Source: a virus
IMG/VR virus record: IMGVR_UViG_3300044712_000950
Location: 1 to 32,780 of that record
Length of the DNA: 32,780 nucleotides
Strand: one strand, 5' to 3'
Shown here: in pieces, positions 4,859 to 25,499 of the stretch
How positions within the stretch are numbered: position 1 is the first letter of the stretch
Layout of the letters: every line of letters begins with the position of its first letter
Translations under genes and position numbers: made by a program
Notes under the pieces: generated by a model
Database searches by the model: none
Seen by the model: only the letters and a program-made list of their open reading frames with translations
Told to the model about the DNA's origin: nothing

Positions 4859-5179
4859 ATGCCTACCATCACCGATGGCGCGCCGCTCGCGCCCTTCCCG
4901 TTCAATGCTTTACTGGCCATCCTCGATGAGCAAGCCCAGGACACCGGCTCGCGCTGCCGCTACGTCGGCCTATCCGCCGATCGCGACGGCCACCTCACCG
5001 GCGAAGCGCATGTCACCTTGTGCGATCGCAAGACCTTCGATCGCACCGGTGGCATCAACCTGCCCATCTATCGTCTCTGTCTCGTCTCGTCACTCCCGCG
5101 TCGCCCTCTCCCTTTGGGAGAGGGTCGGGGTGAGGGTCACATGTCCGCAGACATGCAATCGGAGAGGGTAACTCCATGA
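4859..5179 (+). CDS. Hypothetical early protein with repeat-derived C-terminus
   Basis: This is a 106-residue product starting one base after the previous stop. Residues 1-75 form a normal globular sequence (FNALLAILDEQAQ, GHLTGEAHVTLCDR). The last 30 residues are encoded by a dispersed palindromic repeat and read RPLPLGEGRGEGHMSADMQ. The original stop was therefore probably displaced when the repeat inserted. Its end overlaps the ParB-like gene start by four bases (ATGA). Function is unknown. Confidence 0.55.
   Translation: MPTITDGAPLAPFPFNALLAILDEQAQDTGSRCRYVGLSADRDGHLTGEAHVTLCDRKTFDRTGGINLPIYRLCLVSSLPRRPLPLGEGRGEGHMSADMQSERVTP
5098..5155. repeat. Dispersed repeat A with adjacent CATGTC palindrome
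   Basis: CCCTCTCCC, TTT, GGGAGAGGG and a GGGGTGAGGG tail form the first copy of family A. The palindrome CATGTCCGCAGACATG (5140-5155) follows it. Both lie within the coding end of the gene at 4859. Similar pairs occur near 25445. These resemble REP-like palindromes of bacterial chromosomes. Confidence 0.75.
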
Positions 5180-6750
5180 CCACCTACCTCGAGCAATCGC
5201 TCATCGAACCCAATCCCTACCAGCCGCGCCTCGACATGGACCCCGTCGCGCTCAATCGCCTGGCCGAAGACATCCAGACCAACGGGCTGCTGCAAGCCCC
5301 TGCGGTTCGGCCCATCATGGGCGGCCGTTATCAGATCATCTTCGGCCATCGCCGCGCCGCGGCCTGGAAGATCGCGCACGGCGACAGCCCCTTGCCCTGC
5401 GACATTCGCGAGATGGACGATCGGCAGATGTTCGCCGCCGCGATCGTCGAGAATGATGATCGCGAGAATCTCAATGCCATCGAGCGCGCCAAAGCCCTGC
5501 AACTCTACATGACCAAGTTCGACGCGACGCAGGCTGCAGCCGCCACGCTCTTCGGCCTGAAAGACCAGGCCAGCGTTAGCAATCTATTGCGCCTCTTGCG
5601 GCTGCCCGCCGGCGTGCAGGCCCACGTCGCCACCGGCGATCTGCCCGAGCGCTACGCCCGCGAGATGATCCCGCTGGCCACCCTCGTGCCCGAAAATAAA
5701 CTGATCGAACTGGCCAACCGGATCAGCACGGCTCAAACTCCCGGCGACGCCTCAGCCTATCTGGATTCTGGGCTGGTCGATCTGCTCAACAAATACGCGC
5801 CGCGCCTGAATGTGCATCCCCAGGTCTTTACGCTCGACTGGGATCCGGCAGTGTCCGTCGACGTGGGTGGCACTCCCATGCAGTTGCCCAAGTGCACGGG
5901 CTGCAAGTTCCTGCACAAACGTCGCTACACCGATTACTGTCTGCGGCCCGCTTGCTATAGCGCAAAGGCAGAACTGTTCAGCCAGCAACAAGCCCGCGAG
6001 GTGGCAGCAAAATTCAAAGCCACCATTGCTGAAACCGGCAAGCCCCTCGTCGGCGATCCGAAGACATCCTTCTCAGGTGATACAGCCGATCTATTGGCCA
6101 CCGCACTGAAACAGAAACATGCCGGCATTCTGCTCTTGTCCGTTGCGCCGCAAGGTGGCAATGGCGACTACTGGCGCAGGCAGATCACGGGCAGCGATTG
6201 CGTTGACATCACGCTGGCCGATGGTCACACGCTCGAATCCATCGCCAAAGACCTGGGCAAGAAGAAACCCGCCACCGCCAAATCGCAGCAGGCCACTGCC
6301 AAGAAAGTAGCCGAGAAAGAATCAGTTCTGCGTGACGGCTTCGATAAACTGATGAAGAACACTAAAGCCACCGTTCTGGAGATGCTGCCTTACTTCCGCT
6401 CGACGCTCACGCTGACACCCGCGATCGGTGCCCGCCTGATCGATCGTGACACTTACGCGATCGGCGAATTGTTTGGCAAGAAACATCGCGAGGATCTGGA
6501 GAAGAATCTCAAAGCCAACAAGGCCACCCAGCCGCAGATCGTTGATTCGCTGATTGGCACGCTGCTCTGGGACATCGCCGACAATGTTGGTCCATCCTGG
6601 TTCCGCGACTATAAACCGGAATGCAACCAACAAGTGCGTGATGCCCTGGCCGACTTCGCGCATCAATGCAAAGTCAAACTGCCCGCCGGTTGGGATGCGC
6701 GCCTGAACGGTTCCGTCGAAATTAAACAGGCTAAGCCGAAACGAAAATGA
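5176..6750 (+). CDS. ParB-like nuclease/partition protein with zinc cluster
   Basis: This 524-residue protein is of the ParB/RepB/Spo0J family. The N-terminal ParB domain shows NPYQPR (13-18), GHRRAAA (57-63) and an ENDDRENLN segment (92-100), the family's ENxxREdLn motif. A helix-turn-helix follows (about 112-140, AAAATLFGLKDQASVSNLLRL read across the turn). Around 240-262 is a Cys cluster, C-x2-C-x12-C-x4-C, not part of canonical ParB but seen in phage and plasmid relatives. The remaining 260 residues are Lys-rich and unassigned. ParB-type domains bind CTP in Spo0J/ParB or act as nucleases in others. Here it precedes the replication gene by a four-base overlap, so a role in replication or partition is likely. 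Confidence 0.85.
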   Translation: MTTYLEQSLIEPNPYQPRLDMDPVALNRLAEDIQTNGLLQAPAVRPIMGGRYQIIFGHRRAAAWKIAHGDSPLPCDIREMDDRQMFAAAIVENDDRENLNAIERAKALQLYMTKFDATQAAAATLFGLKDQASVSNLLRLLRLPAGVQAHVATGDLPERYAREMIPLATLVPENKLIELANRISTAQTPGDASAYLDSGLVDLLNKYAPRLNVHPQVFTLDWDPAVSVDVGGTPMQLPKCTGCKFLHKRRYTDYCLRPACYSAKAELFSQQQAREVAAKFKATIAETGKPLVGDPKTSFSGDTADLLATALKQKHAGILLLSVAPQGGNGDYWRRQITGSDCVDITLADGHTLESIAKDLGKKKPATAKSQQATAKKVAEKESVLRDGFDKLMKNTKATVLEMLPYFRSTLTLTPAIGARLIDRDTYAIGELFGKKHREDLEKNLKANKATQPQIVDSLIGTLLWDIADNVGPSWFRDYKPECNQQVRDALADFAHQCKVKLPAGWDARLNGSVEIKQAKPKRK

Positions 6751-7814
6751 CCGCGTTCATCGACCGCCACGATCCCGACGATGTTGCCTGCCGTGAACTC
6801 ACCAGCAAGATCACGCTGCTGGGCACGCTCTGCCTCATCGTCATGCACCAACTTTTTCCACAGCAGATCAGCGGCGAGCGCCTGGCCTATCGCTTCAAAG
6901 TCAGCGACAAACGCAAGACGCTCGATCCGGTTCTCGCCGATCTATGGACCTACGGTTACGCCAGTCACACCGGCACCGATCACTGGCGCATCACCGACAT
7001 CGGCCGCCAGGCCCTCACGTCGCTCATCGCTTCCACGGCCGCTTCCCCGGCGCTGCTTCTAACCAGCGCCTCACCGGCCCAACCGCTGACGACGACCATT
7101 GTGGATAACTCGCCCACATCTGTGGAGAAATCTGCCGGAGAAAATCTCCGCCCTGATCTATCTTCTAATCGATCGATGATCGATCATCAATCAATTGATC
7201 GATCATCGATCATCGAAGAAGAACAGCAGCAGAAAATCTCCTGGCTCGATTCGCACCAGGTCACCGGCGACAAACGTCGCGCCGCGCTGGCCAGCCCGCT
7301 CTGCACCGCCGCCCTGCTAGATGCCTGGCTTCAGCACTGGACGCTCGAAGGCAAGACGGCCAAAGGCGAACCGTTCCGCAGCAAATGGGGACCGCTAAAC
7401 TACGCGCTCACCTGTGCCATCAATGGTGACATTCCCCCTGCTCCCTCTCCAGTGGGAGAGGGCTGGGGTGAGGGCAACGACGACCCGGAGAATATCTCCG
7501 AACCGGAGAAAGTTGAACCGCCATCGAATCCGCTGCCGACGTTTGACGGTGTGCCTATTTTCCAGAACCCGATCAAAATCTGGCAAGCGGCGCAAGGTGA
7601 ACTGCAACTTCAAATGACCCGCGCCACCTTTGATACCTGGGTTAAGAACACCTGCGGCATCGACTACACCAATGACACCATCACTGTCGCCGTTCAAAAC
7701 GAGAATGCCCGTGAGTGGTGGGACACTCGTGTAAAAACCACCGCGCAGCGCATCGTCACCGGCATCATCGGCCAGCACACCGACGTGCGCTTCACCGTCT
7801 GGAGATCAGCATGA
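6747..7814 (+). CDS. Replication initiator: winged helix plus DnaA domain I-like C-terminus
   Basis: This 355-residue protein starts within the previous stop (ATGA). Residues about 20-95 look like a winged helix (GERLAYRFKVSDKRKTLDPVL, then LWTYGYASHTGTDHWRIT split at the wing). A polar linker (110-170) encodes the origin-like repeats. A central helical part follows, and the C-terminal 80 residues resemble DnaA domain I: IKIWQAAQGELQLQMTRATF, DTWVKNT, then ITVAVQNENAREWWDTR and VRFTVW. In DnaA that domain recruits the DnaB helicase. No other replication enzyme is encoded, so this protein probably opens the origin and calls in the host helicase. Repeat family A adds PPAPSPVGEGWGEG near residue 235. 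Confidence 0.8.
   Translation: MTAFIDRHDPDDVACRELTSKITLLGTLCLIVMHQLFPQQISGERLAYRFKVSDKRKTLDPVLADLWTYGYASHTGTDHWRITDIGRQALTSLIASTAASPALLLTSASPAQPLTTTIVDNSPTSVEKSAGENLRPDLSSNRSMIDHQSIDRSSIIEEEQQQKISWLDSHQVTGDKRRAALASPLCTAALLDAWLQHWTLEGKTAKGEPFRSKWGPLNYALTCAINGDIPPAPSPVGEGWGEGNDDPENISEPEKVEPPSNPLPTFDGVPIFQNPIKIWQAAQGELQLQMTRATFDTWVKNTCGIDYTNDTITVAVQNENAREWWDTRVKTTAQRIVTGIIGQHTDVRFTVWRSA
6854..7216. other. Probable replication origin inside the initiator gene
   Basis: TGTGGATAA at 7100-7108 is a perfect DnaA box (reverse complement of TTATCCACA). TGTGGAGAA at 7121-7129 and TTTTCCACA at 6854-6862 each differ by one base. At 7167-7216 lies an AT-richer block with repeated GATCGATCATC (7178-7188, 7197-7207) and overlapping inverted GATC/CGAT units. 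Lambda-type phages place the origin in the initiator gene in the same way. The repeats lie in the polar linker of the protein, where coding constraint is low. Confidence 0.65.
7438..7476. repeat. Dispersed repeat A inside the initiator gene
   Basis: CCCTCTCC, AGT, GGGAGAGGG then CTGGGGTGAGGG is a second family A copy. It is read in frame as APSPVGEGWGEG, so the reading frame is preserved. Confidence 0.75.
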
Positions 7815-9751: not shown

Positions 9752-10295
9752 CATCATGACCATCCTAGCCCTGATGTTTGGCTTCGCCCTGGCCTGCGTG
9801 ATTGGCGTCGTCTACCTGCTCAGCAAGCGGCAGATCAGCGTCGTGCAAAACAACAGCACCAGCGTCACCACCGAACGCACCGACAGCAGCACCGGTGGCA
9901 GCGGCCGCGTCGAGCGCTTCCTGATCAAGTGGACGTTCATCGCGATCGTCGCAGGCCTGGTCATCGCCACACTGGCCAACGCCATCTCTACCGCATCGAT
10001 GTCATTCCCGAATGCTTCTGTCGGGAATCCACAATCCGTCATCGTCGCCACGCCCGCCCCCATGCCCACCGTCGCCGCACCCTCGCTCCCTCTCCCGTTG
10101 GGAGAGGGCCGGGGTGAGGGTGTATCAACCAACCCGCTCACCATCATCATCCCGCTGCTCGCTGGCGCAGTCCTGACTATCTGGGGCTATGCCACCATAA
10201 ACATCATCAAGATCAAACGCGCCCGCCGTCGTGCCTCACCTGCCCAACGCGAAGCGCAACTCGAATCCATGCTCGATCAAATCGAAACACTTTAG
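9744..10295 (+). CDS. Membrane protein with three segments, upstream of the actin-like gene
   Basis: This is a 183-residue protein. Hydrophobic segments lie at about 4-26 (ILALMFGFALACVIGVVYLL), 64-83 (FIAIVAGLVIATLANAIS) and 132-155 (IIIPLLAGAVLTIWGYATI). Repeats B and A have both inserted in the loop between segments two and three (FPNASVGNPQ and LPLPLGEGRGEG). The basic tail (KIKRARRRASPAQREAQLES) is cytoplasmic by the positive-inside rule. It ends ten bases before the actin-like ATPase, so it may anchor that system to the membrane; the link is inference. Confidence 0.65.
   Translation: MSNIMTILALMFGFALACVIGVVYLLSKRQISVVQNNSTSVTTERTDSSTGGSGRVERFLIKWTFIAIVAGLVIATLANAISTASMSFPNASVGNPQSVIVATPAPMPTVAAPSLPLPLGEGRGEGVSTNPLTIIIPLLAGAVLTIWGYATINIIKIKRARRRASPAQREAQLESMLDQIETL
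10001..10031. repeat. Dispersed repeat B within the membrane-protein gene
   Basis: GTCATTCCCGAATGCTTCTG continues as TCGGGAATCCAC. The TTCCCGA and TCGGGAA arms have co-varied from the usual TGCCCGA and TCGGGCA, so base-pairing seems to be conserved. Confidence 0.7.
10087..10123. repeat. Dispersed repeat A within the same gene
   Basis: CCCTCTCCC, GTT, GGGAGAGGG then CCGGGGTGAGGG. It is read in frame as LPLPLGEGRGEG. Confidence 0.75.
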
Positions 10296-10305
10296 GAGAA
10301 CTCAC

Positions 10306-11292
10306 ATGACCGCCAAACGCACCAACCTCAAACTGTACGCCGGACTGCCCATCGGCACGCTCATGGGCGCGGAAGCCGCCGACACTGGCGCCGCCGTTCG
10401 CGCCTTCCTCACCGGGTCGCACACCTGGACCGCCGATGGTCTGGAGTATGCCGTGACGATCGACGACACCATCATCGCCTCGCAACCTGTCGGCGCGATG
10501 TTCGATCACTTGCTGACCATGTCCGGGGAAATGCCGCCCGACAAGCGCGCCCTGTTTCGCGGCGAGATCGGCATCGTCGGGCTGGGCATGAACACCGTCG
10601 ATCTGTTGGTGGTCGCAGCCGGTTCGCCGATCGAGCGCTTCACCGCTGGCGAGACGTTGGGCGTGCGTCGCCTGCTCGACCTGGCCAACCGTGACAACCT
10701 TTACACCCTGGCGGAACTCGACGACCGCCTGCGTGCCGGCACGCTCGACACCGCGCAGGCCTTGCCAATCTGGACCCGCGAAGTCATGGGCCTGATCGAA
10801 GCGCGCTGGTCAAACTTCTTCCGCCGCTTTGGCATCGTCGTCGTCGTTGGGGGTGGCGCGCTGCTGATGCAAGAGGCGATTCGCAAGCGCTTCAATGGCA
10901 AAGCCATCGTGCCGGAAGATCCCGTCATCAGCACGGCGCGCGGGTTGTATAAATACGCCGCCATGAAAGCCGCCAAGACGGGCGACAATCCCGCCAATCT
11001 GCTGGCCTTTGATGCGGGCTATGGCTCGATCAAGTTGTACGGCAAGCGCGGCCCGCTCGTTATGCAGTCGGCCGTGGCCACCAATGGCCAGAAAGCCATC
11101 GGCAAGCAGATCGGCCTCAAGGTCGGCAAGCGGCCGCTGCACATCGTCAACGATCGCGGCAGTTTCTACGTGGGCAACAGCGCGCACCAGTTCGGTCGGC
11201 CGGTCGGCTCGCTCGACTTCGATCGGTTGACCGGCAGCCCGGAGATGTTGGCGCTGCTGCACGGCTCACTCACCAAGTATCTGGCGGACTGA
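10306..11292 (+). CDS. Actin-like ATPase (ParM/StbA class) with circularly permuted motif order
   Basis: This is a 328-residue protein, started at ATG 10306 (AGGAGA eight bases upstream). Residues 8-230 match the second part of an actin-like ATPase: LYAGLPIG (11-17), phosphate-2-like GIVGLGMNTVDLLVV (89-103), adenosine motif VVVGGGALL (179-187) and connect-2-like STARGLYKY (209-217). Residues 232-328 match the first part: phosphate-1 LLAFDAGYGSIK (232-243), the YVGNSA turn (288-293) and LDFDRLTGSPEMLALLHGSL. In canonical ParM, MreB and actin the phosphate-1 part comes first. The usual Asp of phosphate 2 (D-x-G) is Gly here. It is coupled by one base to a ribbon-helix-helix-like gene, as in ParM-ParR cassettes. 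Filament-based DNA segregation or positioning is the likely job. Confidence 0.8.
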   Translation: MTAKRTNLKLYAGLPIGTLMGAEAADTGAAVRAFLTGSHTWTADGLEYAVTIDDTIIASQPVGAMFDHLLTMSGEMPPDKRALFRGEIGIVGLGMNTVDLLVVAAGSPIERFTAGETLGVRRLLDLANRDNLYTLAELDDRLRAGTLDTAQALPIWTREVMGLIEARWSNFFRRFGIVVVVGGGALLMQEAIRKRFNGKAIVPEDPVISTARGLYKYAAMKAAKTGDNPANLLAFDAGYGSIKLYGKRGPLVMQSAVATNGQKAIGKQIGLKVGKRPLHIVNDRGSFYVGNSAHQFGRPVGSLDFDRLTGSPEMLALLHGSLTKYLAD

Positions 11293-11513
11293 TGCCACGC
11301 CCACGTCGCAGCGGCCGCCACATCTGGCAGATCAAACTCACCCTCATTGAAGGTGAAGATGATGATCTGCTGGCGCTAAAAGCGCACACCGAGCGCGGCG
11401 ATGGCGCAGCCACCATCAAGCAAACACTGCGCGCGGGCGGCCTGGTCACGGCCTCCGGTCCCATCGACGACACCGCCGCCATCGAAGCCTCTCTGGATAA
11501 CCTGATGATCTAA
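11292..11513 (+). CDS. Small ribbon-helix-helix-like partner of the actin-like ATPase
   Basis: This 73-residue protein overlaps the actin-like gene by one base (TGATG), so the two are translated together. After a basic N-terminus (MPRPRRSGRHIWQ) it shows a strand IKLTLIEGEDDDLLAL and helices (TERGDGAATIKQTLRAG). This suits a ribbon-helix-helix fold of the ParR or CopG kind. An acidic tail follows (PIDDTAAIEASLDNLM). In plasmid type II systems ParR binds the centromere and caps ParM filaments through its C-terminus. The analogy rests on gene order, size and fold pattern, not on close similarity. Confidence 0.6.
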   Translation: MPRPRRSGRHIWQIKLTLIEGEDDDLLALKAHTERGDGAATIKQTLRAGGLVTASGPIDDTAAIEASLDNLMI

Positions 11514-11515
11514 GC

Positions 11516-11552
11516 GAATCGGGTAGCACGTTTCAAACATGCTACCCGATTC
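11516..11552. promoter_or_regulatory. 13-bp perfect hairpin between the segregation genes and the next gene
   Basis: GAATCGGGTAGCA and TGCTACCCGATTC pair perfectly around an 11-base loop, CGTTTCAAACA. It begins two bases after a stop codon and ends directly before the AGGAGA ribosome site of the gene at 11565, with no T tract. It could be a processing or stability hairpin, a protein-binding site, or a centromere-like site for the RHH protein. Confidence 0.5.
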
Positions 11553-12607: not shown

Positions 12608-12643
12608 CCCTCTCCCATTGGGAGAGGGGTTAGGGGTGAGGGT
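12608..12643. repeat. Dispersed repeat A between convergent blocks
   Basis: CCCTCTCCC, ATT, GGGAGAGGGG then TTAGGGGTGAGGG. This copy lies in true intergenic DNA between the hairpin at 12574 and the end of the late block. Confidence 0.75.
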
Positions 12644-25444: not shown

Positions 25445-25499
25445 CATTTCTGCGGACATGCCCCTCTCCCATTGGGAGAGGCGTTAGGGGGAAGGGTGT
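25445..25499. repeat. Dispersed repeat A with CATGTC palindrome
   Basis: On the plus strand TTCTGCGGACATG (near palindrome) is followed by CCCTCTCCC, ATT, GGGAGAGG and CGTTAGGGGGAAGGG. This is the mirror-image arrangement of the pair at 5098-5155. Confidence 0.7.

Follow-up and report, generated by a model that had tools for sequence, protein, structure and literature searches.

A gene in the virus record IMGVR_UViG_3300044712_000950 encodes a circularly permuted actin-like ATPase, in which the C-terminal half of the chain (C-half) precedes the N-terminal half (N-half). It lies at positions 10306–11292 (+ strand) of the window, the whole 32,780-nucleotide stretch of DNA that we analyzed, and specifies 328 amino acids. 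The permuted order is real; it emerges from profile matches and a structural model and is common to two other intact genes, L005 and L122. The explanation we favor, with considerable confidence, is that the protein is a ParM/Alp-type ATPase that has been circularly permuted in nature, folds as actin, polymerizes, and positions or segregates DNA together with an adaptor. We also think it reasonably likely that, among actin-family ATPases, this is the first natural example of a circular permutation, and that it is a functional, polymerizing partition actin of phages that was re-cut in subdomain IA and spread among Anaerolineae phages and mobile elements.

An earlier sequence-only reading had described a single unbroken reading frame with a good start and stop, and this was borne out. 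The gene starts with the ATG at 10306, 8 bases past the ribosome-binding site AGGAG (10294–10298, + strand), and ends with the TGA at 11290–11292. All motifs cited in that reading sit where it placed them, and their order is permuted. The canonical order in actin-like proteins is phosphate-1, connect-1, phosphate-2, adenosine, and connect-2; the window protein departs from it, with phosphate-2 followed by adenosine, the C-terminal helix, and phosphate-1. The C-half (aa 1–221; 10306–10968, + strand, as for the following segments) aligns with the C-halves of normal-order relatives and comprises the remainder of subdomain IA and subdomain II, with the C-terminal helix DPVISTARGLYKYAAMK last. It contains the phosphate-2 motif GIVGLGMNTVDLLVV (aa 89–103; 10570–10614), with glycine at the canonical aspartate position, and the adenosine motif VVVGGGALL (aa 179–187; 10840–10866). 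A linker, AAKTGDNPAN (aa 222–231; 10969–10998), leads from the old C terminus to the old N terminus and differs among the other permuted genes. The N-half (aa 232–328; 10999–11289) carries the phosphate-1 motif FDAGYGSIK, the subdomain IB region, and a closing helix that runs to LTKYLAD.

Homology to ParM/Alp actin-like ATPases is present over both halves. With phrog_691, a phage partition-actin family, residues 9–224 of the window protein matched profile positions 104–328 of 329 (E = 3e-27). Residues 234–324 matched positions 1–88 of Pfam ALP_N, an N-terminal domain, with an E value (3.3e-10) better than the Pfam cut-off. When the protein was rotated at residue 232, phrog_691 became collinear in one stretch (residues 2–321 versus positions 6–328 of 329), and the score rose from 96.6 bits as two matches to 108.3 bits; a normal-order relative scored 109.7 bits. 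The nearest annotated phage protein, gp03 of virus Rctr41k (KX853513.1), has the normal order and is 44% identical to the rotated window protein from end to end. Judged from these comparisons, chance cannot explain the swapped matches and the rotated collinearity, which support the original assignment, an actin-like ATPase of ParM/Alp type that is circularly permuted.

Among 84,980 scanned genomes of bacteria and archaea there were 14 relatives, all in Chloroflexota. Thirteen have the normal order and one, L005 (PMCF01000331.1, from a fen Anaerolineae MAG), is permuted, in one frame and intact; it is 63% identical to the window protein (61% and 70% over the two halves). A profile search of Anaerolineae gave matches in 50 of 396 genomes. 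In viruses, we obtained about 40 IMG/VR phage loci, and all those spanning both halves place the N-half before the C-half; the related-locus search of viral contigs found no permuted member. A DNA pattern scan provided a second permuted phage, L122 (IMGVR_UViG_3300007072_000133, 36,305 bp), whose intact ORF is 60% identical to the window protein and whose contig encodes terminase, head morphogenesis, tape-measure, and DnaB-like genes. L122 answers a question raised from the sequence alone, whether another phage shares this order. A partial third permuted copy, L113, is present in L005's genome, on a contig (C429) that begins inside the gene and contains the N-half, then a stop, then an adaptor-like gene. 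In genome G022, a decayed N-half (L114:2986–3432) directly 5′ of an adaptor-like gene is a relic of a permuted copy. The permuted order, with one breakpoint common to all five genes, therefore occurs in independent genomes, intact in the window, L005, and L122, partial in L113, and decayed in L114. A further locus (L115:537–1205, − strand) holds a C-half-only actin ORF that starts near the permuted breakpoint; the adaptor gene follows this ORF, and no N-half lies upstream.

As all of these sequences are metagenomic and the window record, a linear contig, may be incomplete, the swapped order could in principle be an artefact of assembly or binning, with tandem or rearranged copies misjoined and no permuted gene. 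However, the three intact in-frame ORFs come from independent assemblies, are 60–63% identical, and have the same ends and downstream gene, and each half yields the same clade in trees. Searched with HMMs for each half, the window shows a single actin locus, which also excludes a split or duplicated gene within it. The sequence-only reading had held that homologues in the normal order would reveal a local assembly error; about 80 other relatives do have that order, but L005 and L122 share the swapped order and breakpoint, and the point did not hold. Because these two other intact genes derive from independent assemblies, we exclude assembly error and consider an artefact of any of these kinds extremely improbable.

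The three intact permuted proteins align nearly without gaps except at the linker and the ends. Their C termini read LTKYLAD (window), VSKYLEE, and MTKYFEG and their N termini, in the same gene order, MTAKRTNLKLYAGLP, MTKPRAVNLWIALP, and MIKRTLNVWVGLP; normal-order relatives read through the breakpoint as LTRYQMAYGPLRIPIVMMVGLP. In the window, AAKTGDNPAN joins what were the old ends, ARGLYKLLLMKKK and MNNNQFFYLGEDLGMGANK. The corresponding stretch is similar in L005 and longer in L122, and across permutants the linker (∼8–20 residues) varies in both length and sequence. In the rearrangement that we propose, the ancestral termini (the helix ...ARGLYKYAAMK and the first subdomain IA strand ...LAFDAGYG) would have been joined by this short variable linker, while new termini would have opened in a subdomain IA loop that has the helix ending in LTKY on one side and the strand preceding GLP on the other. 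The window protein shows the features that define a natural circular permutation: homologous halves swapped within one ORF, joined old termini, and new termini in a loop.

We modeled the proteins with AlphaFold2; for the permuted protein, the input alignment combined natural full sequences with half-fragments that were likewise natural. The permuted protein was predicted to be a confident single domain (pLDDT 91.4, pTM 0.89), and the model of a normal-order relative had a pLDDT of 91.9. The C-terminal part of the permuted model consists of strands at residues 232–237, 241–246, and 249–254 and a helix at 312–327, and the normal-order relative begins with a matching series (strands 7–12, 17–22, and 25–30; helix 88–105). 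Thus, as anticipated before any model was available, the C-terminal 97 residues are predicted to form the actin IA/IB half. The normal-order relative aligned with Dh-cParM1 (8x1i) with a Z score of 30.0 over 316 residues, and with Ta0583 and CorM with Z scores of 27.4 and 26.6. Alignment of the permuted model in sequence order was confined to residues 1–230 (Z = 14.5 and 14.2), the outcome to be expected when a sequential aligner meets a permuted chain. From the model confidence and the order of structural elements, we infer that the permutant keeps the ordinary actin fold. In such a fold the phosphate-1, phosphate-2, and adenosine loops would meet around ATP, and the protein would be expected to polymerize.

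The same linker could permit a domain-swapped polymer, in which the N-half of one molecule completes the C-half of the next, changing filament formation such that the permutation is not neutral. The tether between the halves has the length and variability described above, and nucleotide-binding loops reside on both halves. Nonetheless, the confident AlphaFold2 model is a monomer that contains both halves, and just a few residues of loop separate its C-terminal helix (209–225) from the first strand (232–237). Because the old termini adjoin each other in actin folds, packing within a single monomer is simplest. We consider the swapped polymer very unlikely and favor an ordinary actin monomer.

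The window protein retains the phosphate-1 motif, the GGG of the adenosine motif, and, close to the position of actin Q137, an SQPVGA region. The phosphate-1 aspartate and the GGG motif are invariant in the permuted trio, and that aspartate is also invariant in 32 normal-order rows of the alignment. The phosphate-2 aspartate, which ParM and actin require for hydrolysis, is glycine in all three intact permutants. In 86 non-permuted relatives, this position is serine in 65 and aspartate in 17, mostly distant ones. Since serine prevails among normal-order relatives, loss of the aspartate predates the permutation, and we exclude that it resulted from it. The aspartate-to-glycine replacement pointed out in the sequence-only reading is thus present, but as part of a trait of the subfamily that preceded the permutation and not as a peculiarity of the permutant. 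With this aspartate missing, ATPase activity is uncertain, and it is possible that hydrolysis is weak or slow across the subfamily.

An alternative is that the protein is an inactive or regulatory pseudo-actin that no longer polymerizes; it might simply be tolerated, or it might serve as a scaffold or join the small downstream protein in repression. The shared glycine would fit such a role, as would the decayed relic L114 and the C-half-only gene L115. However, the phosphate-1 aspartate, the glutamine near actin Q137, and the adenosine GGG are kept, and because aspartate-to-serine changes are common in normal-order phage actins, this reading would imply that the entire subfamily is dead. Moreover, the intact permuted genes, which are 60–63% identical, are by their dN/dS values (∼0.28, 0.22, and 0.14; synonymous change is almost saturated) under purifying selection. 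We therefore regard a pseudo-actin as unlikely and a polymerizing ATPase as the better explanation.

In FastTree phylogenies of the aligned halves, the permuted sequences formed one clade, with local support of 0.96 for the whole sequence, 0.96 for complete sequences only, 0.92 for the N-half, and 0.98 for the C-half. The sister of this clade, drawn from the Anaerolineae order to which L005 belongs, comprises normal-order genes plus a single C-half-only gene; the C-half-only L115 is sister to normal-order genes. The permuted clade and its sister are nested among normal-order genes, and the permutation is therefore derived and most likely arose once, in a single event. We envisage an origin in an Anaerolineae-associated element, either through a tandem duplication whose two outer halves were trimmed away or through gene fission and renewed fusion, with later spread among phages and mobile elements.

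Directly upstream of the permuted actin in L005 are three 205-bp tandem copies that are 91% alike (L005:5917–6579). Each consists of the gene's own start region and a phosphate-2 fragment and contains a 70-aa mini-ORF. We rejected the mini-ORFs as functional peptides; dN is close to dS, with no sign of coding constraint, and they probably do not code. The copies are candidate partition repeats or a candidate duplication relic. The duplication-trimming route usually starts with a tandem duplication, and the repeats show that this locus duplicates in tandem, but their bearing on that route is suggestive only.

The actin stop codon shares one base (TGATG) with the ATG of a small gene encoding 73 amino acids (11292–11513, + strand). 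In nearly all relatives, a 70–100-aa gene of the form MARPR...L.L..GEDDDLIAF...P...R...K.ALR.GG...acidic tail lies directly 3′ of the actin gene. The 73-aa protein has no Pfam or PDB match and no detectable similarity to ParR or ribbon-helix-helix families. It aligned weakly, over 48 columns and with 17.5% probability, to a gene that lies downstream of parM on a plasmid; ParR homology found no support in these comparisons. From its place and size, the small protein is the probable adaptor of a ParMR/AlpAC-like pair. By analogy with ParM and AlpC, we infer filament-based DNA positioning, in which filaments and this predicted DNA-binding adaptor would position or segregate phage or mobile-element DNA.

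An inverted repeat with 18-nt arms (11516–11552) begins 3 nt past the adaptor stop codon. Inverted repeats with arms of approximately 10 or more bases occur 3′ of the adaptor gene in 24 of 59 related loci, versus 0 of 59 control windows, and could represent a partition site or a terminator. Repeats of unrelated sequence occupy the same place at L005:7799–7835, L113:525–589, and L115:224–270.

ParM/Alp proteins (phrog_691; pCBH ParM, Dh-cParM1 8x1i, Alp12, Ta0583, CorM) are homologous to the window protein over both halves and have the same nucleotide-binding motifs; the normal-order relative shares their fold, and a small gene follows the actin gene. The window protein differs in its swapped halves, its replaced phosphate-2 aspartate, and a downstream protein that is not detectably ParR. 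Rctr41k gp03 and the IMG/VR phage actins belong to the same subfamily and have a phage context, but in all those that cover both halves the N-half precedes the C-half. FtsA is an actin-superfamily protein of altered topology, with one subdomain elsewhere in the chain; whereas FtsA relocates a single subdomain, the window protein moves the whole N-half to the C terminus, with the fold predicted to be kept. In corynephage CGP3, the phage actin AlpC is co-transcribed with an adaptor, AlpA, that ties phage DNA to the filaments and aids replication (PMC4446434). Unlike the window protein, AlpC has the normal motif order, and the AlpA DNA site is upstream of the operon (PMC4446434). The AlpC/AlpA pair is the experimental analogue, and by position the 73-aa protein would correspond to AlpA.

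The literature we searched contains no description of a permuted actin or ParM, in keeping with the sequence-only reading, which knew of no described permuted ParM, and a permutation-search preprint does not mention actin. Foldseek, which could miss one, found no permuted chain in PDB or BFVD (best TMq 0.56). Two BFVD entries with neighboring accessions, A0A1I9S6C7 (255 aa) and A0A1I9S6C6 (108 aa), matched the permuted model over 250 columns and weakly over 95 columns, respectively; they are possibly a phage actin split in two genes. Actin, MreB, ParM, FtsA, and Hsp70 share one ancient fold, and its motif order serves to define the superfamily. A second phage and a mobile element of bacteria keep the same swap, which suggests that an actin-type chain can be re-cut at another point and evolutionarily retained. 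A natural permutant with close normal-order relatives offers a test of whether the order of the chain affects folding, nucleotide gating, and the assembly of filaments. Permuted proteins would be undercounted by motif-order rules and by structure searches that proceed sequentially: against ParM 8x1i, the Foldseek TMq is 0.78 with the normal-order relative but drops to 0.53 with the permutant.

The window phage also encodes an integrase and a ParB-domain protein (5176–6750) that overlaps a DnaA N-terminal-domain protein (6747–7814). DNA-handling genes of the ParB-like and the actin-like kind thus seem to be combined in this phage, and the integrase, ParB-type, and DnaA-type genes would be fitting for a temperate phage that requires DNA segregation or replication placement. 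A dispersed palindrome, CTCTCCCnnnGGGAGAGGG, is found at 5104–5124, 10088–10108, 12608–12628, and 25462–25482 (8 strand matches versus 0.24 expected). Several occurrences lie inside genes, including one in frame (PLPLGEGRGEG) in the membrane gene just 5′ of the actin gene.
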